From positions 1 to 22,375 of IMG/VR virus record IMGVR_UViG_3300043313_001969: a DNA stretch of 22,375 nucleotides; one strand, written 5' to 3'. The first letter of the stretch is position 1, and each line of letters opens with the position of its first letter. The translations under genes were made by a program, and so were the position numbers. Below the pieces are notes generated by a model. That model had not been told where the DNA came from and made no database searches. It saw only the letters and a list, made by a program, of their open reading frames with translations. The stretch comes from a virus. Of this stretch, positions 3,696 to 13,279 are shown piece by piece.

Positions 3696-3877
3696 GGCAT
3701 CCTCGCAATGCAGGCCTTCAGCAGCGTCTCAAAGCGCCCCTGCTGCGCCACCGCCAGGGCACTCAGAAACCACATCGCCGCACTGACCATGATGACGTTG
3801 AGCAGGATCAGCGCCAGGACCACCGGCGATGACTTCAGGCTGTCGACGGCCTGCCCGATGAATTGGTTCACGATCAT
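3692..3877 (-). CDS. Small one-helix membrane protein, holin candidate
   Basis: 61 residues. A short amphipathic N-terminus (MIVNQFIGQAVDSLKSSP) is followed by one hydrophobic segment at about 19-43 (VVLALILLNVIMVSAAMWF and onward) and a polar/basic C-terminus (RFETLLKACIARMP). Start and stop both overlap the neighbours by four bases (ATGA). It lies between the last tail fibre and the lysis genes. A single transmembrane helix and this position fit a class III holin or another lysis accessory protein, but no family-specific motif is visible; a virion membrane protein cannot be excluded. Confidence 0.68.
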   Translation of the reverse strand: MIVNQFIGQAVDSLKSSPVVLALILLNVIMVSAAMWFLSALAVAQQGRFETLLKACIARMP

Positions 3878-6300
3878 CCCTTCGCGGCGAGTACCGCTTC
3901 CAGCGCCGCGACCTTGTCCGAAAGCTGCTGGACCGCCAGCACCAGATGCATAACGACGCCCTTGCTGTAGTCGACCGCCAGGTAGCCCTCCTCGCTCTTG
4001 GTCTGGACCACCAGCTCGGGCGCGATGGCCTGCACCTCCTGGGCGATCAGCCCGAGATCGTCTTTCTTGCCCTCGCCGATCCAGTCGAAGATGACCGGAT
4101 GCAGCCCATCGACCACATTCAGCCCGCCCGGCATGTCGCGGACGTTTTCCTTCAGCCGCTCGTCAGAAGCGTTAACGACTTGGCCGTGATGCTCGACATC
4201 CCGCTCGCAGACCAGCACCCGCTTCATCTGCGTCGCGGTCGCCCCCTGGGCCAGAGCCGGCGAGCCGCTGACGAAATCCTCCAAGGTGTTGTTGGAACCG
4301 TTATGCCGGCGATAACAATCACCGAACCAATTGCCATTATAATAGTAACCAAAGTTGCTGCTGGTCGCGATTGAATTATAATAATGCCGCTGGTTGGTCC
4401 CCATATTGATCGCGGCGAAGGGCTGTGCGGAACCGCTAACGGTATGGGCCGCATTAACGGTATCGAAACCGACCTTGAAGTTGCCATTCAAAAAGTAGGC
4501 GGCATCCATCGCCATGTACGGGCTTTTGAACCAATTGCCGAACCAACGGCAATCGCCTGAGTCATCATTCTTCTGCCGGTCGAAAGCGATCGGCTCGTGA
4601 CAGACCGCGATATTATAATTGGGGTTATGGCTGTACTGGACCTCATAGGCAGTCAGAAAGATGCTCGGCCCATCGCCGTACATACTACCGCCGAACAGCC
4701 CGCCAGTAGCGGTGTTCATAAAGTAGCTTTGGCCGGCGTTCTTATTATACTGGTTCGTAACAACCATGTTGCCGACATGCACATAGGAGTCGCCGCCACC
4801 CCGATGTGCAACTTCGGTGTAATAAGCCGTACTCATAGTCCGGTCGGAAATGGTCACATAGCTGTAATAGGCCGGATACGGGCCGTTATAGACCGCCCGA
4901 TTTAGGCCGAGATTGGCGTTGGAACCTCCGGCAGACGTCACGCTGGTGACGGTGTAATCGCTATAATTGTCGCCCCACATCCGGATTTTGGCGCCGACGA
5001 CGACCTCGGCCCCCGGCCCCTGCACCTGAATGGAGTTAGCGCCGTTGTTGGCGGGAGTGTTCAACACAGCCGACTTGCCGGCATGCCCCCCATAATTATC
5101 GAAGACCACATGATACGGGGTAACAGCGGCGTCGAAATAAGTGTTGGTCTGGCCGCCATCCGTGTGCATAGCGGACGACCAGCCGTTGCGCAGATTGGCC
5201 GTGGCGGGCGTGCCGATCGCGGTCCATGACCCATTCATCCGCCCGGTCGCCCCGTCGTAATAAAGACTGGGCGGGACGCGGGTCCGGACAAACGCCACGT
5301 CATCGAAAGCCGTGCCGGAGCCAAGCTTGATCTTACCGGCGCCCGTATAGCGCTTGGTCAGATCGGTCTTGCTGGTGACGAAGGTGCCGGGCGGTATCCA
5401 GATCACCGGGCTGGCATGGGCTTCGGCTGCGGTAAACGCCGCATCGTTGCTGGTGACACCATCCCCCACGCCGCCAAGGGTCACCAGATCGGGCAGCAAA
5501 AACGCCCCGCCGCCACCACCGCCAGCCGCCGGTGTCTGCCAGGACAGACTGCCGGCTGATGAGCCAGCCGTCAGCACCTTGCCGTTGTTGGTGGTCCCAG
5601 TCGCCGGAACGTGCAGGTTGCCGTCCCCGGTCGGGTGGACATAGGCAGGCGCCCCGCCCCCTGCCCCCGCGGGGGGCGCCGGCACTTTCTGCCAGATCGA
5701 ACCATTGAACCGGATCTGGTCCCCCACCACCCAGGCCGCGGTGCCGTCGATATCGGTCGAACCCGCGGTGCCGACGGTGTAGAAATCATCCGCCGTGCCC
5801 GAGCCTGAAACCAAGGCGGGGGAATTGGTGGAGGCGTTCCAGGTGCCCTGATAGATGCCGGGCCGGGTCCAGGTCAGGCTGCCGGCCGACGCCCCTGCGG
5901 TCAGCCGTTTGGCGTTGTTGGACGTGCCGGTGGCCGGTACATGCAGATTGCCGTCACCGGTCGGGTGGACGTAGTTGCTGCCGCCGCTGGCCGGCGTAGT
6001 CCAACCGGTGTTCTGGTTGGCGTTGGAGAGCTTGGTCAGAACCTGGTTGGTGGTCCCGCCGTCGGGCACTTTTCCGGCAGTCGATGGTACCGGCAGATTG
6101 ACCCAGCCGGCATCCTGATCAGCCGGGGAGAGCTTGGTCAGGACCTGATCCTTGACCCCGCCGCTCGGCAGCGCGGTTCCGCCCACCCCGGCTTCGGGAA
6201 AGCCGCCGCCGGTCCAGGCATAGCCGTTCCAGGTGTAGTCGATGCCGTTGGCCAGGAAGACCTGGCCTAGCGTCGGATTGCTTGGGAAATCAAAGGCGAT
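3874..6300 (-). CDS. Tail fibre/spike with beta-helix body and C-terminal S74 intramolecular chaperone; probable ATC start
   Basis: The frame gives 808 residues if begun at ATC 6298-6300; the first canonical start (GTG, 6186) would delete the conserved docking module. That module (AFDFPSNPTLGQVF then YTWNGYAW) equals the N-termini of the two fibres upstream. Next come QVLTKLS repeats (about 50-95), two copies of a YVHPTGDGNLHVPATG module (about 110 and 220) around a GTWNAST...DWxxGD-like linker, a Gly run, and from about 275 a pectate-lyase-type beta-helix start (GVGDGVTSNDAAF, then IWIPPGTFVTS). The Tyr/Asn/Gly-rich middle is probably the receptor or depolymerase part. The end (ASDERLKENV; Ser712, Lys717 in this numbering) is the Ser-Lys dyad of peptidase S74, which assists trimer folding and cleaves itself off. 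Confidence 0.85.
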   Translation of the reverse strand: MAFDFPSNPTLGQVFLANGIDYTWNGYAWTGGGFPEAGVGGTALPSGGVKDQVLTKLSPADQDAGWVNLPVPSTAGKVPDGGTTNQVLTKLSNANQNTGWTTPASGGSNYVHPTGDGNLHVPATGTSNNAKRLTAGASAGSLTWTRPGIYQGTWNASTNSPALVSGSGTADDFYTVGTAGSTDIDGTAAWVVGDQIRFNGSIWQKVPAPPAGAGGGAPAYVHPTGDGNLHVPATGTTNNGKVLTAGSSAGSLSWQTPAAGGGGGGAFLLPDLVTLGGVGDGVTSNDAAFTAAEAHASPVIWIPPGTFVTSKTDLTKRYTGAGKIKLGSGTAFDDVAFVRTRVPPSLYYDGATGRMNGSWTAIGTPATANLRNGWSSAMHTDGGQTNTYFDAAVTPYHVVFDNYGGHAGKSAVLNTPANNGANSIQVQGPGAEVVVGAKIRMWGDNYSDYTVTSVTSAGGSNANLGLNRAVYNGPYPAYYSYVTISDRTMSTAYYTEVAHRGGGDSYVHVGNMVVTNQYNKNAGQSYFMNTATGGLFGGSMYGDGPSIFLTAYEVQYSHNPNYNIAVCHEPIAFDRQKNDDSGDCRWFGNWFKSPYMAMDAAYFLNGNFKVGFDTVNAAHTVSGSAQPFAAINMGTNQRHYYNSIATSSNFGYYYNGNWFGDCYRRHNGSNNTLEDFVSGSPALAQGATATQMKRVLVCERDVEHHGQVVNASDERLKENVRDMPGGLNVVDGLHPVIFDWIGEGKKDDLGLIAQEVQAIAPELVVQTKSEEGYLAVDYSKGVVMHLVLAVQQLSDKVAALEAVLAAKG
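5539..5643 (-). repeat. YVHPTGDGNLHVPATG module, copy 2 in the S74 fibre
   Basis: Reads YVHPTGDGNLHVPATGTTNN then KVLTAGSSAGSLSW. Separated from copy 1 by a GTWNAST-type linker that is widespread in tail fibres. Confidence 0.8.
5869..5973 (-). repeat. YVHPTGDGNLHVPATG module, copy 1 in the S74 fibre
   Basis: Reads YVHPTGDGNLHVPATGTSNN then KRLTAGASAGSLTW. Direct repeat within one gene. Confidence 0.8.
6211..6300 (-). repeat. Fibre docking module A, copy 3
   Basis: Encodes AFDFPSNPTLGQVF then YTWNGYAW at the N-terminus of the S74 fibre; the first codon is ATC. Shared with the copies at 9021-9110 and 11463-11552. Confidence 0.8.
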
Positions 6301-6305
6301 AGCAG

Positions 6306-6311
6306 CCTCCC
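6306..6311 (-). promoter_or_regulatory. Strong ribosome binding site in front of ATC 6300
   Basis: GGGAGG on the minus strand, 5 nt before ATC 6300-6298 and just after the TGATG junction at the end of the esterase gene. The ATG inside that junction (6313) opens only a seven-codon frame (MGGCYRL), so the site seems to serve the ATC-initiated fibre. Confidence 0.6.
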
Positions 6312-6312
6312 A

Positions 6313-7332
6313 TCACGCGACGGCCAGGAAAGCTGGCAGCATTTTGGTCTCGTTCGTGGTCGTGCCGGGGTGGGTCCCATCCGGCAAATCGCTCAAGGTG
6401 CAGATCGGCAGACCGTTCATGTAGACCGGCGGTACGCTCCAGCCGGCACGGGCCGTCACCTCGCCGGCGATCGCTGTCCGGCCCTGCGGCATGGTCCAGC
6501 CATTGGTGGTGGCGGTCTCATCGCGGATGATCGGGCTGCTACAGACAACCGGAATGGTGGAGGCGATGGCGTGGATCGCGTCCAGCAGCCCCCCGTAATA
6601 GGCGGTAAAACTCGCCAAGTTCGGACCGCCGGGAACCGCCTGGTCGTTCGACCCGATGGCGAGGATTATCTTGGTCGGATTCAGACTGACGAGAAAACTG
6701 GCGAAGGCTGTCCGCTTGGGCGCGGTGTCGCAATCATCCAACAAACGCCGGTAGCCATGCGAGACCAGCGTCACACTACCGTCATAGCCACCATTGGCGG
6801 CGGGCCGCTTCATCAGCCCGGCATAGCCGAACAGGGTCGGGCAGACACCGACGCCCCCCGAGGCGATGCTGTCGCCATAGATCACGACATGCTTGGCCAG
6901 CAGCACCGGAGCGACTGCCGTCGCCGCAGCATCGAACCGGACACGGATCGGATAGACGCCAACAGGTGCGGCGCCACCTGACATGGCGTATTGGGCCGGG
7001 ACAAAGATCTGCACCGTCTTATTGGTCCCGGCGGGCAACAACAGTTTGGCGGTGAAGGCCCCGAGTGCTTCGGGCACCTTAAAGAACCGATCTTCGGTCT
7101 TACCGCCTTGGATGGTGCGGGCACAGATCCGGTTGGTGACACCGCCGACACCGAACGGCGCCGTCGCATAGCCGTCCAGCTCAGCGTATCGGGCCGATGT
7201 GGTGAACTCCCAGTAGGCGCCGTTGCCGACATCGTAGTAGTCGTTGCCGCCGCCGACCGAGACCAGCGCCGGGGTGCGGCCGTTCTCGTGCAACTGCGCG
7301 GGGGTGAGGGTGATGGCCGCCTGTAAAGTCAT
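6313..7332 (-). CDS. SGNH/GDSL-family esterase (putative polysaccharide deacetylase of the tail)
   Basis: 339 residues from ATG 7332, which overlaps the stop of the preceding fibre by four bases (ATGA); an in-frame ATG at 7347 is less likely. The N-terminal 140 residues are beta-rich and resemble an accessory carbohydrate-binding part. The catalytic half shows all SGNH blocks: VVIYGDSIASGG with Ser155 (block I), VSHGYRR with Gly193 (block II), LAIGSND with Asn229 (block III) and DLPDGTHPG with Asp318 and His321 (block V). Such enzymes hydrolyse O-acetyl or other ester groups; in tail cassettes they deacetylate capsule or O-antigen sugars. Substrate is unknown. The gene lacks the fibre docking module, so it is either attached in another way or soluble. 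Confidence 0.85.
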   Translation of the reverse strand: MTLQAAITLTPAQLHENGRTPALVSVGGGNDYYDVGNGAYWEFTTSARYAELDGYATAPFGVGGVTNRICARTIQGGKTEDRFFKVPEALGAFTAKLLLPAGTNKTVQIFVPAQYAMSGGAAPVGVYPIRVRFDAAATAVAPVLLAKHVVIYGDSIASGGVGVCPTLFGYAGLMKRPAANGGYDGSVTLVSHGYRRLLDDCDTAPKRTAFASFLVSLNPTKIILAIGSNDQAVPGGPNLASFTAYYGGLLDAIHAIASTIPVVCSSPIIRDETATTNGWTMPQGRTAIAGEVTARAGWSVPPVYMNGLPICTLSDLPDGTHPGTTTNETKMLPAFLAVA

Positions 7333-9110
7333 GTGGTGCCATCCCACTTGGTCGCCCCACTGGGAAGCGAATAGGTCAACGGGTTGTTGAGCGTGACGCT
7401 TGAATGCGGCGTGGCACTCAAACCGGCGAAAATGAAGACATTTGTCCCCAGCGAAGTGATATCAACTGTCGCGCTGAACGTACCACCGTTCTTATTCATC
7501 TTCACTGTATGGGCGGTGAAATCGACCAAAATCCCGATAACGTCACCAGCAACATAAGCCCCAGGGTTGGCCACCCCGGAACTACCACCATTCTTATAAA
7601 AAGACCCGAAGTTAGCTGCATAGCCAACACCGAAGTCATCTGAACCAGGATGGCTATCGACATTTGCCGCCGATCCACCGACACCAATGTTAGTTCCAGC
7701 ACTGCCAAAAACATCGACATGAACCTCGACATATCGCAGCCCGGTTGCCTGCGAGGTGGCCGACTTCGCGCTGAGATACGCCCCTCCCGCAGTCGTCCCA
7801 CGGGTTGCGGTGCGGTTCTGCGAACCACCAACAACGGTCATGAACCCGCTTCCGGCTGGGTCCCAGGCAACCGGGGCCGTCGCCGGCACGGTGCCAGTCG
7901 TGGTCGAGGTGAAGGTGTCGCTGACACCGCCGATGGTCAGGGTGGTGTCGGTGGCGGTGAAATCAGCGCCTGAGTTGGTGTGCCGGACGGCAAAGGTGTC
8001 GGTGTTGACCGCTGTGGTGGGGAGGGTCGACCAGGCGCCGCCGTTTTTGGAATACTCACCGCCAGTGACGGTAACAGGGGTGCTCATACCTGGAGAAAGG
8101 CCGGAGACGGTGATGATGTTGGAGGTCGAGACCGAGGACAAAGGAACCGCAGTGACATCGGTAAACGTAAATGGGTTCGGGACCGAGTTGATCCCGACGA
8201 CCCCTTCGGCCATCACCGCCCGACCGAGGGCTGTGTTGAACTCATGCAAAATCCAGAACAGCAGGGCCACATCGTCGGGCGTCAGCCCGAAACCGATGAA
8301 ATCCCCACCAGAAGCGCCTGGGGCCGTGTAGACTTTGCGGGGGACCGCAGGAGGAAGGTGTGGCGTTACGCCTGTCGTCACGCCCCGGATGACCCCGTTC
8401 CGAGCAATCAGGGCGGCTGTCGACGAATACCGGGACCCACAGATAAGACCCTTGGTACGGGCTGAATCCGGCAGGGCAAGCAATGAACCATCCGTCTGCA
8501 CCCGGCCGTTATCTATAGCGCTGAAAGCATCGTACATTATGTATTGGCCGTAGCCACGACTAGCTAAAGTTAGATATTTCTCACCGGCGGCATAAGTGTA
8601 ATCCGCCGCGATACTGGCGTTGTCAGTCTTGGCATCCTCCAACATGTAGAGGCCCATGCAGGATGAGGAGGTCGTCAGGCCAGCGGCTTCGGCATTAACC
8701 CCCGTGTCCATGTTGCCTGTGCCGGCCAGCCCGAGGCCCTCCACCCAGGTCGAAAAGGTCCCTGTCTGGGTATCAAAACCCGGCCCATTAGTGGCAATCA
8801 GTGGAGAGCGGGCGGCGATCAGATCGTTGCCGCACCGAGGATTGAAATAGACGAACTTGACCGTCAGCCCGGCCAGCGCCAGATCCCGCTCCAACTGCTT
8901 GACGGCGGCGATGGTCGCCGGCGACTGTGATCCGCCCCGAGTGGTGATCGCCGCCGCCCGGGCATCCGCCAGCGGCGTCGGAACTGCACCCCCAGACCCT
9001 GGCTGCCCGAGAGCCTCAACCATCCAGAGATAGCCGTTCCAGATGTAGGAGGCATCACCAGAGGTGAAGACCTGGCCATCCGTCGGATTGCTGGGGAAGT
9101 CAAAGGCCAT
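7329..9110 (-). CDS. Tail fibre with docking module, jelly-roll-like domain and SPRY-like C-terminus
   Basis: 593 residues from ATG 9110, with AAGGA about 9 nt upstream overlapping the TAA of the preceding gene. Residues 2-30 (AFDFPSNPTDGQVF, YIWNGYLW) are the docking module shared with two other fibres. Residues about 82-305 form a beta-rich domain of unknown fold with a GGDFIGFGLTPDDVALLFW segment. Residues 313-405 repeat a module also found in the Ig-like fibre (PFTFTDVT...LTIGGVSDTF). Residues about 430-580 look like a SPRY/concanavalin-type sandwich, with YVEVHVDVF and VIGILVDFTAHTVKMNKNGG as its typical strands. A role in sugar or protein receptor binding is inferred. Part of the unknown domain (about 8521-8580) is much AT-richer than its surroundings. 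Confidence 0.8.
   Translation of the reverse strand: MAFDFPSNPTDGQVFTSGDASYIWNGYLWMVEALGQPGSGGAVPTPLADARAAAITTRGGSQSPATIAAVKQLERDLALAGLTVKFVYFNPRCGNDLIAARSPLIATNGPGFDTQTGTFSTWVEGLGLAGTGNMDTGVNAEAAGLTTSSSCMGLYMLEDAKTDNASIAADYTYAAGEKYLTLASRGYGQYIMYDAFSAIDNGRVQTDGSLLALPDSARTKGLICGSRYSSTAALIARNGVIRGVTTGVTPHLPPAVPRKVYTAPGASGGDFIGFGLTPDDVALLFWILHEFNTALGRAVMAEGVVGINSVPNPFTFTDVTAVPLSSVSTSNIITVSGLSPGMSTPVTVTGGEYSKNGGAWSTLPTTAVNTDTFAVRHTNSGADFTATDTTLTIGGVSDTFTSTTTGTVPATAPVAWDPAGSGFMTVVGGSQNRTATRGTTAGGAYLSAKSATSQATGLRYVEVHVDVFGSAGTNIGVGGSAANVDSHPGSDDFGVGYAANFGSFYKNGGSSGVANPGAYVAGDVIGILVDFTAHTVKMNKNGGTFSATVDITSLGTNVFIFAGLSATPHSSVTLNNPLTYSLPSGATKWDGTT
7896..8174 (-). repeat. FTFTDV module, copy in the SPRY-like fibre
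   Basis: About 93 residues: PFTFTDVTAVP, SNIITVSG, GGEYSKNGGAW, FAVRHTNSG and LTIGGVSDTFTSTT. Diverged copy of the module in the Ig-like fibre. Confidence 0.72.
9021..9110 (-). repeat. Fibre docking module A, copy 2
   Basis: Encodes MAFDFPSNPTDGQVF then YIWNGYLW at the N-terminus of the SPRY-like fibre; ATG start. Confidence 0.8.
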
Positions 9111-9122
9111 GGTGCCGGGTCC

Positions 9123-11552
9123 TTAAAGCAGCGTGCCGACGACGGCGGCAACCGAGGACCCTTGTGTGTCCTTCGCGACCGGGATCGACTTGGCGAACAG
9201 GCCGACATCGAACTCCATTTCAATCTCGACAATCGGCAACTGGTAGGGCTGCGAGCCGGCGAAATCGATGCCCGCATAACCCCAGAACAGTGACCCACCG
9301 CCGAACCACCGGTCGCTCGGCAGCATGGTCTGCGCCACCGACGCGACTAGGACCTGATCGTTGGGCTGCTTGCCGGTCATGGCTGTCAGGGTGAACTCCC
9401 GCCGGCCGACAATCGAGGTGTCGATATCCATCTGCATGGAGACCGCATCGGCCATCGTGTCGGTGCGCAGCACGCTGTAATTGGTGATGATGAGCCGGCC
9501 ACTCGTCCCGGCCGACTTCTGGTGCACCACCGCCCCCAGCCGGATCAGCCGGCCGGTGCGGCCGGTCCAGTGGCCGTTGTCGAGGGCCGGCTTGCCGAGG
9601 AAGACGTCACGGAACAACTCGCCCGGCTGCTTGCCGCGCGCGGTCGCATCCGACATCCGCCGGATGCCGTCACCCCCGGTGCAGTTCTCGATGATGACCC
9701 GGCCGGTGCGGTTGAAGCGGACCTGGCCATTGGCCCAGGCCGGCAGGGTCGCGTAGGGCAGCGTGGTCTCGATATAAGAGTAGGTGGCGTCCTCGTAGAT
9801 CCGGGTGACGACGCCCTGCCCGATCGGGCCGCTCAGGAACTGTCCACCGCCCCCGCACAGCAGACTGACCCCCTGTCCGGGGATACAGTTCCACATGTAT
9901 TTGGAGGTCGGGGCATAAGACAGAAGAATGCGGATCGTGCCGTTGCTGAAAGTGACGTTGGTGCCGTCGATCACGGCGCCCTGCACGATCGGCTTGAACG
10001 GGATCGCCGCGTCGTCGGCATTGGCAACGATGCTGTTGCGCAGCGTGAAGCTCCGGTTTGAGCCGTAGCCCAGCTCTCCGGTCAACGTCCCGAGATAGCA
10101 GTTGTCGACGGCGATATCCTTCGCCGCGCCCCGGATGAAGGTATTGGGCAGATAGCAGTTGCGGATCGAGATCCGGTCCATGCTCGACGACTGGAAGCCG
10201 AAATTGACCGTCGAGGCATCATGGACCCCGTCCATTTCAAACAGGCTGACCAGCTTGTCGGGCTCGCTGCCATTCGACAGCCGGCCCCCGAGGAGCTGCG
10301 CATGTTCGCAGATCGTCGGTGTCGCCCCCGGCAGATCGCAGTCGATGAAGCGGCTCTTGCGGCCCATCAAATACATGAGAGTCAGATTGGAAGTCGGAGC
10401 GATCCGGAACGTGCCGCCCCAATAGGAATGGTCCACGTCCCAGAAGTTGGGCTTGCCATTGAACGGCAGATCCAGCGGGAACAGCCGCGCCTTGCCGCAG
10501 GGCTTCAGATTGCCGGCGTCCGGGTAGTCGTCCCGGTGCGCGTAGCGCAGCGGCTTCCCCAGCGTGATGACACCGGTACCGGCATCCTTGGAGACGATCT
10601 TGACGAACTCAAACTGATCGCAATTCGACGGGAAGCCGTAATACATAAGGTCCAGCGACACCAGCAGCGCCGAACTGCCAGCCGCGAAGTTGGTGTGGTC
10701 GCCGACGGTCTTCAGTTTGACCGTGGTGGCGCCGATCGTCGTGGTATCGACCCGGTAACCGTCATAGAATAACGGCCAGAAGGCCGAACCCCAAGCCAGT
10801 TCCTTGTGGTCATCGTCGCCGCTAACCGATTGGTTATAAGTATTCTGCCAGATCGTCCCGCGCATATCCCAATACAGCTTGGAGATGCCGTGCAGATAGC
10901 CCAGACACAAGCTATGATCGAAGTTATGAATGCCAGGTTCTGAGCGGATCACCACCGCCCGCCCGGCAACGCTCTCGGCCCGGGCATAAGTGTTGAAGGC
11001 CATCAGCGCGGTCGAGTTATCAGCCACCTCCGGTCCGCCGCCGAAGTCCCGAAACGACACCATACTCGCATCGCTGCCAGCGGGCCCTTCGGGACCGACA
11101 GGCCCAGGAATACCCTGTGGCCCCACAGCCCCTTGTGGACCTGTGTCGCCCTTTGGCCCAGCACCAATCTGCACCCACTGCTGCGAGGTGCCATCGTCAT
11201 AATAGATGGCAAAAATTCCAGTGTCGCTCTCCCAAAAAAGTTGTCCTGGAACCGGCGACACCGGCAGAGTGTCACTGATCGTAACCCCGGCTCCTCCTCC
11301 GCCTTCTCCCCCGACCGTACCGTTGACCTGTACCCATTGCTGCGAATTACCGTCGTTGTAATAAACGTAAAGCGCCCCGGTATCGCTCTCCCAAAAAAAT
11401 TGTCCGTGCGTCGGAGATACCGGCGGCGTATCGCCGATCCAGGCACCATGCGTACCGCCCAGCTGCCAAGCATAGCCATTCCAAGTATAGCCAGCCCCGC
11501 CAGCAATAAAAATCTGGCCGGGCGTAGGGTTACTGGGAAAATCAAAAGGCAC
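9123..11552 (-). CDS. Tail spike with docking module, collagen-like stalk and beta-helix body
   Basis: 809 residues from GTG 11552; the SD-like TAAGGATC spans the stop of the Ig-like fibre 8-14 nt upstream. Residues 1-30 are the docking module (PFDFPSNPTPGQIF, YTWNGYAWQ). Two copies of a 39-residue QLFWESDTG-type module follow (about 39-77 and 92-130), then a collagen-like stalk of about nine Gly-X-Y triplets (GPKGDTGPQGAVGPQG and onward, 132-160). From about 165 on (SFRDFGGGPEVADNSTALMA, VVIRSEPGIHNF) the pattern fits the entry into a right-handed beta-helix of the pectate-lyase class, with many short Asn- and Gly-capped strands to about 660. The C-terminus is beta-rich. It is likely a trimeric spike; depolymerase activity is possible but no catalytic residues can be named. 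Confidence 0.8.
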   Translation of the reverse strand: MPFDFPSNPTPGQIFIAGGAGYTWNGYAWQLGGTHGAWIGDTPPVSPTHGQFFWESDTGALYVYYNDGNSQQWVQVNGTVGGEGGGGAGVTISDTLPVSPVPGQLFWESDTGIFAIYYDDGTSQQWVQIGAGPKGDTGPQGAVGPQGIPGPVGPEGPAGSDASMVSFRDFGGGPEVADNSTALMAFNTYARAESVAGRAVVIRSEPGIHNFDHSLCLGYLHGISKLYWDMRGTIWQNTYNQSVSGDDDHKELAWGSAFWPLFYDGYRVDTTTIGATTVKLKTVGDHTNFAAGSSALLVSLDLMYYGFPSNCDQFEFVKIVSKDAGTGVITLGKPLRYAHRDDYPDAGNLKPCGKARLFPLDLPFNGKPNFWDVDHSYWGGTFRIAPTSNLTLMYLMGRKSRFIDCDLPGATPTICEHAQLLGGRLSNGSEPDKLVSLFEMDGVHDASTVNFGFQSSSMDRISIRNCYLPNTFIRGAAKDIAVDNCYLGTLTGELGYGSNRSFTLRNSIVANADDAAIPFKPIVQGAVIDGTNVTFSNGTIRILLSYAPTSKYMWNCIPGQGVSLLCGGGGQFLSGPIGQGVVTRIYEDATYSYIETTLPYATLPAWANGQVRFNRTGRVIIENCTGGDGIRRMSDATARGKQPGELFRDVFLGKPALDNGHWTGRTGRLIRLGAVVHQKSAGTSGRLIITNYSVLRTDTMADAVSMQMDIDTSIVGRREFTLTAMTGKQPNDQVLVASVAQTMLPSDRWFGGGSLFWGYAGIDFAGSQPYQLPIVEIEMEFDVGLFAKSIPVAKDTQGSSVAAVVGTLL
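11166..11279 (-). repeat. QLFWESDTG module, second copy in the beta-helix spike
   Basis: ISDTLPVSPVPGQLFWESD followed by TGIFAIYYDDGTSQQWVQIG; more diverged, placed just before the collagen-like stalk. Confidence 0.78.
11322..11438 (-). repeat. QLFWESDTG module, first copy in the beta-helix spike
   Basis: IGDTPPVSPTHGQFFWESD followed by TGALYVYYNDGNSQQWVQVN; nearly the same DNA as the Ig-like fibre copy. Confidence 0.8.
11463..11552 (-). repeat. Fibre docking module A, copy 1
   Basis: Encodes MPFDFPSNPTPGQIF then YTWNGYAW at the N-terminus of the collagen/beta-helix spike; GTG start. Confidence 0.8.
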
Positions 11553-11563
11553 AGGCTTGATCC

Positions 11564-13279
11564 TTACAATGTCGCCGTGACAGGCCCCACCGAATTACTC
11601 GACGCCGTTGTCGAGCCCCCGGAATTGGTCGCCAGAACGTCGCAGTGTATTAGCTTATTCACATCAAACTGTTGTATGACATAAGTACTCGCCGTACTGA
11701 CGAAGTTAGTTCCGCTAAACCATTGGTACATGTAACTTGTCGGATTGCCGGTCCAGGTACCGTCCGACACGGTCAGCGTCTGCCCCTTGATGGGGGAACC
11801 AGTGACCTCGGGTAAGACCGTGTTCACCGGCGCTGCCTCAACTTCCGGGGCAATGACACCCGTCGATTCACTTTGCGCCGTGGTCGAGCCGCTCGCATTC
11901 GTCGCCGTGACTTTGCAGTGGAGGATGGCCCCCGCATCCGCCGCCTGCTGCAGATAGGTCATGGCGGTTGCGCCCGAGATCGCCGTCGAACCTCTGAACC
12001 ACTGGTAGGTGTAACCCGTCGGACCGCCGGTCCATATCCCGGTCGATACGGTGAGCGTGAAACCAACGGTCTGATTGCCGGTGATCGTCGGCCGAGCCGT
12101 GTTGCTCGGCGCCCCGGCGGCCGCTGTGGTCACCGTATAGGTATCCAGCACCCCACCGATGGTCAGGGCCGCATTCACCCCGGTGCCATTCGCCGACGCT
12201 GAGGTGACCCGAACGGTGACGCTATCCCCGAGCACCACAGTCCCTGCCGCACCCGTATAAGCCCCGCCGTTGATCGCGTAAGTGCCACCGACAATCGAGA
12301 TCGGCGCCGGCGCATTGATGCCCGCCACGGTGATAGCGTTGGAGGTATACACCGTCGCCGGCGCGGCGCCGGTTACATCGGTGAAAGTGAACGCGTCGGG
12401 CGTGGTGTCGACAATCGCCCCGATGACCCCGGTCGAGTTACTTTGGACCGTCGTCGAGCCGCTCGCATTGGTGGCTGTCACCTTGCAGTGCAGCACCGCT
12501 CCCACATCCGCCGGCTTCAGCAGATAGGTCGCCGCGGTGGCCCCGACGATCGCTCCCGCCGCACTCGACCACTGATAGGCGTAAGCAGTCGGGCTATTGG
12601 TCCAAGTCCCGTTCGACACCGTGAGCGTCTGGCCCTCGGTCTCAGTCCCGGTGATCGCCGGAGGTGTTGTGTTGCTGGGCACCGATACGGGAACCGGCGA
12701 GATCGCCCCCGTGACATTGCTCTGGGCGAGCGTGGACCCGCCGCTGTTGGTTGCCGTGACCTCGCAATAGAGCGCCGCCCCGACATCAGCCTCCACCGGC
12801 ACATAGGTCTGGGCAATCGCCCCGACGATGCTGCCGCCGGAGCGGAACCACTGATAGGCGTAAGCAGTCGGGATGTTGGTCCAGGACCCGTTCGACACGG
12901 TCAGGATCTGCCCGACCATCAGTGTCCCGGTGACGCTGGGCGCCACGGTATTGACCGGCGCTTCCGGCCCTGGCCCTGGCCCAGGCCCCGGGCCCACCCC
13001 TGAAACCGGGGTGACGCTATTAACCTGCACCCATTGCTGCGAGTTGCCGTCATTGTAGAAGACGTACAAACCCCCGGTGTCGCTCTCCCAAAAAAGTTGC
13101 CCGTGAACAGGAGATGCGGGCGGGGTGTCGCCGATCGAAACCGCCGCGCCCCCTAGCGCACTGACGGCAGCATCAATCTTGTCGAAGTTAGCGTTGAGGT
13201 CGTAGCCCCAGACGTTGTCGGTCTCCTCGCCATGGATTGCCGGTTTGACCAGCTTGAGGACTGGAGTTGTCGTTGCCAT
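11564..13279 (-). CDS. Tail fibre with docking segment and four Ig-like repeats
   Basis: 571 residues from ATG 13279 with GAGGAA 7 nt upstream (a TTG just before it is not needed). Residues about 8-42 (LKLVKPAIHGEETDNVWGYD, LNANFDKIDAAV) match the N-terminus of the tail-collar protein. Residues 48-87 carry one QLFWESDTG-type module, followed by a (GP)n linker at 96-106. Four Ig-like repeats of about 86 residues follow (107-193, 201-286, 390-476, 483-568), each with LTVSNG(T/S)W, YQW, an H/YC(K/E)V(T/L)ATN strand and GST at the end. Between repeats two and three lies a different module (291-385) shared with the 593-residue fibre. Ig-like domains on virions commonly give weak binding to host surface sugars. 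No obvious terminal receptor domain is present. Confidence 0.82.
   Translation of the reverse strand: MATTTPVLKLVKPAIHGEETDNVWGYDLNANFDKIDAAVSALGGAAVSIGDTPPASPVHGQLFWESDTGGLYVFYNDGNSQQWVQVNSVTPVSGVGPGPGPGPGPEAPVNTVAPSVTGTLMVGQILTVSNGSWTNIPTAYAYQWFRSGGSIVGAIAQTYVPVEADVGAALYCEVTATNSGGSTLAQSNVTGAISPVPVSVPSNTTPPAITGTETEGQTLTVSNGTWTNSPTAYAYQWSSAAGAIVGATAATYLLKPADVGAVLHCKVTATNASGSTTVQSNSTGVIGAIVDTTPDAFTFTDVTGAAPATVYTSNAITVAGINAPAPISIVGGTYAINGGAYTGAAGTVVLGDSVTVRVTSASANGTGVNAALTIGGVLDTYTVTTAAAGAPSNTARPTITGNQTVGFTLTVSTGIWTGGPTGYTYQWFRGSTAISGATAMTYLQQAADAGAILHCKVTATNASGSTTAQSESTGVIAPEVEAAPVNTVLPEVTGSPIKGQTLTVSDGTWTGNPTSYMYQWFSGTNFVSTASTYVIQQFDVNKLIHCDVLATNSGGSTTASSNSVGPVTATL
11576..12961 (-). repeat. 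Array of four Ig-like repeats, split by one foreign module
   Basis: Repeats lie at about 12701-12961, 12422-12679, 11852-12112 and 11576-11833 (about 86 residues each). Conserved elements are LTVSNGTW, AYQW and HCKVTATNASGSTT. The second and third are separated by the 12125-12409 module. Confidence 0.8.
12125..12409 (-). repeat. FTFTDV module, copy in the Ig-like fibre
   Basis: About 95 residues from DAFTFTDVTG via ITVAG, GGTYAINGGAYTG and VTVRVTS to LTIGGVLDTYTVTT; same order of motifs as 7896-8174. Confidence 0.72.
13019..13138 (-). repeat. QLFWESDTG module, copy in the Ig-like fibre
   Basis: About 40 residues: SIGDTPPASPVHGQLFWESD then TGGLYVFYNDGNSQQWVQVN. Close to the copy at 11322-11438 also at DNA level, including the TTTTTTGGGAGAGCGA stretch. 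Confidence 0.8.

Follow-up and report, generated by a model that had tools for sequence, protein, structure and literature searches.

Where does translation of a phage tail-fibre gene begin when its conserved N-terminus is preceded by none of the codons ATG, GTG and TTG? This question is raised by a virus contig of 22,375 bases, referred to here as the window, which also encodes a terminase large subunit, a portal and a major head protein. Bacteria are considered to use non-canonical start codons very seldom, and only a small number of cases have been characterised (PMC5472188). The original prediction was that one fibre in the window can start only at an ATC codon. The genes and modules concerned are as follows.

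3874–6300, minus strand: tail-fibre gene of 808 codons with a C-terminal endosialidase-type chaperone (Peptidase_S74)
6214–6297, minus strand: conserved N-terminal docking module of this fibre, AFDFPSNPTLGQVFLANGIDYTWNGYAW, defined by alignment with the sisters and under strong purifying selection in comparison with the relative L006
6313–7332, minus strand: GDSL/SGNH-type esterase gene with its ATG at 7332, upstream of the fibre and ending 12 nt before the ATC
9027–9110, minus strand: sister docking module with an ATG start
11469–11552, minus strand: sister docking module with a GTG start

The proposed match of the docking module to two sister fibres was confirmed by alignment. Read from Ala 6297, the fibre protein is homologous to the modules that follow ATG 9110 (ATG GCC TTT GAC) and GTG 11552 (GTG CCT TTT GAT), both sister starts being as previously described, and the identities of 62% and 52% (E about 1e-13 and 5e-12, respectively) are beyond chance. 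The C-terminus of the fibre matched Peptidase_S74 with an E value of 1.8e-13, which is above the curated cut-off, and the protein also matched PHROG tail-fibre families. The window fibre has both parts of the phage fibres that combine an FDFPxxP...YxWNGxxW N-terminal module with a Peptidase_S74 C-terminus. The Pfam match of the esterase falls below the curated cut-off. Elsewhere in the fibre region, two genes (11167–11440 and 13015–13140) carry copies of the segment GDTPPxSPxxGQLFWESDTGxLYVYYNDGNSQQWVQ, as do other phages that were examined, and this segment resembles a mobile linker unit.

On the minus strand, the junction between the esterase and the fibre reads GTC GCG TGA TGG GAG GCT GCT ATC GCC TTT GAT TTC CCA. 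It contains, or is followed by, these elements.

6313–6315, minus strand: TGA stop codon that ends the esterase, lying in the fibre frame 12 nt before the ATC
6306–6311, minus strand: GGGAGG Shine-Dalgarno (SD) sequence, 5 nt before the ATC, with a calculated anti-SD duplex of -10.2 kcal/mol
6298–6300, minus strand: ATC, proposed fibre initiation codon, matching the ATG/GTG column of the sisters, with a same-place ATC in contigs L004, L331 and L387
6290–6313, minus strand: seven-codon frame ATG GGA GGC TGC TAT CGC CTT TGA, overlapping the esterase stop, from whose CTT-TGA end a +1 shift leads into the fibre frame
6184–6186, minus strand: GTG, next canonical in-frame codon, rejected as a start (no SD; GTA in L006)

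Upstream of the conserved N-terminus the frame is closed and holds no ATG, GTG or TTG, and the codon in the start column of the sisters is the ATC at 6300-6298, with GGGAGG lying 5 nt upstream at 6311-6306; both points stand as predicted. The esterase and the fibre occupy one reading frame, a point absent from the original prediction, and it is for this reason that the TGA at 6315-6313 closes the fibre frame. The closure itself had been foreseen, but the distance from TGA to ATC is 12 nt and not 11. The ATG at 6313-6311, overlapping the esterase stop, does open a seven-codon frame, and the next canonical start in frame is indeed GTG 6186-6184, at codon 39 and past the conserved module. Initiation at this GTG was rejected: the codon has no SD (duplex of -1.7 kcal/mol), L006 as the closest relative reads GTA in its place, and a start there would cost the fibre its module. 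RNA structure at the start did not exceed that of shuffled sequences (the z score of the window was about 0), and Rfam and tRNA scans of the window gave zero matches.

Two separate scans covered 2.9 million viral contigs, one for AT(A/C/T)-GCN-Phe-Asp-Phe-Pro and the other with A(A/C/G)G at the first codon of this pattern. Where a docking module lay in a closed frame that lacks a canonical start, the first scan yielded L331 alone besides the window, and the second yielded L106 alone; ATA, ATT, AAG and AGG at the start of a docking module gave zero cases in the scans of these contigs. A third scan, in which GGAGG was obligatory and the peptide pattern was looser, returned L387, which is hence SD-selected. 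The start of L331 reads ATGACAGGAGGCTACC-ATC-GCC-TTT-GAT (also given as ACAGGAGGCTACC-ATC-GCC-TTT-GAT), that of L387 reads AAATAGGAGGTTGTC-ATC-GCG-TTT-AAC (also as ATAGGAGGTTGTC-ATC-GCG-TTT-AAC) and that of L106 reads TAAGAGGAGGTTGTC-ACG-GCG-TTC-GAT (shorter, AGAGGAGGTTGTC-ACG-GCG), the ACG being preceded by the SD sequence AGAGGAGG. L331 and L387 each have a closed frame without a canonical start, GGAGG, a 5-nt spacing, ATC-GCN and a docking module; the strong SD, the spacing, the ATC and the module thus recur in at least two other, uncultured phages. The common block GGAGGCTRCYATCGCCTTTGATTTC could partly reflect recombination and not independent origin. In L331 and L106 the stop of the upstream gene also lies 12 nt before the start codon and in the same frame, which would suit translational coupling. 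Directly before the ATC-start fibre of L387, an opposite-strand open reading frame (526-936) lies between two fibre genes and resembles an HNH homing endonuclease by eye.

Of the 132 modules that a profile search recovered from all fetched loci, 4 (the window, L331, L387 and L106) lie in a closed frame and have no canonical start within eight codons. When modules were collected regardless of start codon, 94 of the 99 had ATG, GTG or TTG nearby, unlike the window; of the remaining five, the window and L106 have a closed frame and no canonical start, and the others are fused or internal modules or false matches. L146, L094, L112 and L196 were considered as further non-canonical cases and rejected as internal or fused modules, modules with an upstream ATG, or false matches. 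The suggestion that ATC serves as a rare start gained support from the independent ATC codons of L331 and L387, the ACG of L106 and the same-column ATC of L004; that such a start would lower the amount of the fibre is considered with the mechanism below.

The frame shared by the esterase and the fibre also bears on a different reading, in which the esterase TGA would be read through or reassigned to produce an esterase-fibre fusion. A fusion of this kind has a parallel in the relative L005, in which the esterase sequence forms the N-terminus of a larger protein. However, genes in the window end in TGA, TAA and TAG alike, the other non-canonical cases have TGA, TAG and TAA as the corresponding in-frame stops, and an ideally spaced SD would have no point, which together make readthrough most improbable.

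The strength of the SD sequences was calculated as their duplex with the 16S tail. The obtained values were -10.2 kcal/mol for the window, -10.3 for L331, -10.9 for L387 and -12.7 for L106, against a mean of -5.7 and a median of -5.9 kcal/mol in the 94 canonical docking genes. The compensation argument rests on the three clean, SD-unselected cases (window, L331 and L106), L387 being left out as GGAGG was in its search pattern, and their duplexes were stronger than those of the canonical sisters (permutation p about 0.002, n=3). By chance, GGAGG lies 4–8 nt upstream at 0.7% of window positions. Weaker start codons tend toward compensation by stronger SDs (PMC5622118), and the strong SDs at the non-canonical docking starts are in line with that tendency.

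The seven-codon frame offers another route into the fibre, namely initiation at ATG 6313 with a subsequent +1 shift at CTT-TGA, which serves as the slip site in the prfB (RF2) frameshift, to give MGGCYRL-DFPSNP.... The geometry is suggestive, given that the ATG overlaps the esterase stop (TGATG), that the shift would land exactly in the fibre frame and that the layout of L331 is alike (ATG ACA GGA GGC TAC CAT CGC CTT TGA). Yet CTTTGA is a simple product of the Ala-Phe-Asp codons GCC TTT GAT, and ATG 6313 has no SD. The prfB stimulator is an SD-like element about 3 nt before the slip codon; in the window no stimulator stands at that distance, and the GGAGG lies 10 nt before CTT, a wrong spacing for this type of element. 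The slip site occurs in L331 but is absent from L387 (GTT-TAA), L106 and L004, which are without a slip site or an upstream ATG and nevertheless have a non-canonical or ATC codon in the same place. Finally, the shift would lose the Ala-Phe of the conserved AFDFP. We therefore regard the frameshift as very unlikely, if somewhat less so than readthrough. In L331 (10295-10332), a frame that opens at upstream ATG codons and crosses GGAGG terminates with CTT TGA, like the seven-codon frame of the window, and this ending is probably a by-product of GCC TTT GAT.

The relatives of the window illustrate the history of the junction. L006 is the closest, with 93% DNA identity at the fibre start and ATG as its start codon. 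The fibre homology of L004 extends to 6305 in the window, a little upstream of the ATC, and CTGCT-ATC-G of the window stands there opposite CTGCC-ATC-G of L004, followed in L004 by GTG; L006 has ATG because three bases are missing relative to this alignment. The adjoining GTG may be the real start in L004 and its ATC unused. The adjacent ATC GTG of L004 (6001-6006) and the ATG of L006 amount to a small set of naturally occurring start variants of almost the same gene. In both L004 and L006 the upstream gene differs from the esterase of the window, which instead shares about 80% DNA identity with L005 and has 90% identity with the N-terminal portion of a longer L005 protein. As the esterase matches L005 and the fibre start matches L004 and L006 with another upstream gene, the junction of the window is a mosaic. 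The esterase of the window (6313-7332) stops exactly where its 887-residue relative in L005 (2558-5206) continues as a long fused protein, and modules of the fibre cassette appear to be swapped at domain borders and not at gene borders alone.

Among the other contigs searched, none carries the esterase-fibre junction of the window, and the search of cultured phages for near relatives likewise found none that does. A contig from another metagenome, L098, is 99.97% identical to the window over 3.1 kb (9927-13046), which indicates that nearly the same phage was sampled twice; it ends before the ATC junction. Docking modules are widespread but distant in cultured phages, chiefly cyanophages, and a scan of genome contigs gave one distant case with an ATG start.

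An error of one base in the assembled contig, with ATG as the true codon, had been left as an option by the original prediction. The window is a single metagenomic contig and its closest relative has ATG, but ATC stands in this place in three further contigs of different metagenomic origin, of which two have no alternative start. Among the three is L004, an independent contig with ATC in the same column, although its GTG may be the start. An error is therefore unlikely, and we give it as little credence as readthrough.

The main rival is that the start has been damaged, i.e., that a point change or a recombination between esterase and fibre removed the canonical start and left this variant with negligible or absent fibre. 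It draws on the ATG found at or near the same place in L006 and L005, on the mosaic nature of the junction and on its presence in no other contig. Against these stand the intact frame of 808 codons, an SD at the new junction that outdoes most SDs of the sisters, and the recurrence of the arrangement in other phages, where the dead codons AAG and AGG were not found in the scans. Selection on the module also argues against damage. Between the window and L006 the module is changed at 13 of 25 synonymous sites and at 4 of 83 non-synonymous sites; when L005 is used to polarise the changes, 6 synonymous and 2 non-synonymous ones fall on the window branch. Purifying selection has thus continued to act on the module along this branch, part of which may predate the loss of the canonical start. 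We consider a damaged start unlikely, though the most credible of the alternatives.

Judging from the sequence, we consider it likely that ATC 6300 is where translation of the fibre begins. In the proposed mechanism, a ribosome just finishing the esterase at TGA 6315-6313, or a directly recruited 30S subunit, would pair with GGGAGG, and this pairing would set the ATC in the P site at the ideal 5-nt spacing. The initiator tRNA (fMet) would then begin at the ATC and yield (f)Met-Ala-Phe-Asp-Phe-Pro..., with the docking module whole. The SD, and probably the ribosomes ending the esterase 12 nt upstream, would offset the weak ATC codon. Initiation of this type would be limited by IF3 and its yield would be low, so that the weak start may lower the amount of the fibre, as the original prediction had supposed.

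Comparable starts are known from bacterial genes. The IF3 gene infC, which begins with ATT in E. coli and with ATC in Streptomyces, is likewise read from a non-canonical start and documents ATC in GC-rich bacteria, IF3 being a repressor of non-canonical starts (PMC5472188). It is, however, a host housekeeping gene under IF3 autoregulation, whereas the window fibre is a phage structural gene. The sigR gene of Streptomyces is closer in layout, with an IF3-repressed GTC start after an extensive SD (AGGAGGTG), and this start holds the amount of product low (PMC5472188). The sigR start was proven by N-terminal sequencing and mutation and belongs to a regulator with a different codon, whereas the fibre is a virion protein whose start is predicted. 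The likeness to the work of Belinky, Rogozin and Koonin 2017 (PMC5622118) lies in weak starts with stronger SDs; the abstract of that study deals with GUG and UUG, whereas the codons here are ATC and ACG in phage fibre genes. Non-canonical initiation is thus known as a kind, and its recurrence in phage fibre docking genes appears to be undescribed in the literature searched, where we found ATC starts reported neither for phage fibre genes nor for phages generally.

A wider role can be put forward tentatively. ATC or ACG with an extra-strong SD could be a deliberate, IF3-sensitive attenuator in a group of phage receptor-binding fibre genes, which would restrict some fibres of multi-fibre cassettes to a constant low output or to conditions of relaxed start-codon discrimination; gene callers limited to ATG, GTG and TTG would then cut off the docking modules. 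If ATC and ACG do recur before fibre docking modules, annotation of this type sets the starts too far downstream and loses the part of the fibre that attaches to the virion. If true, such starts would also offer a phage a simple and testable means of fixing the proportions of its alternative fibres.
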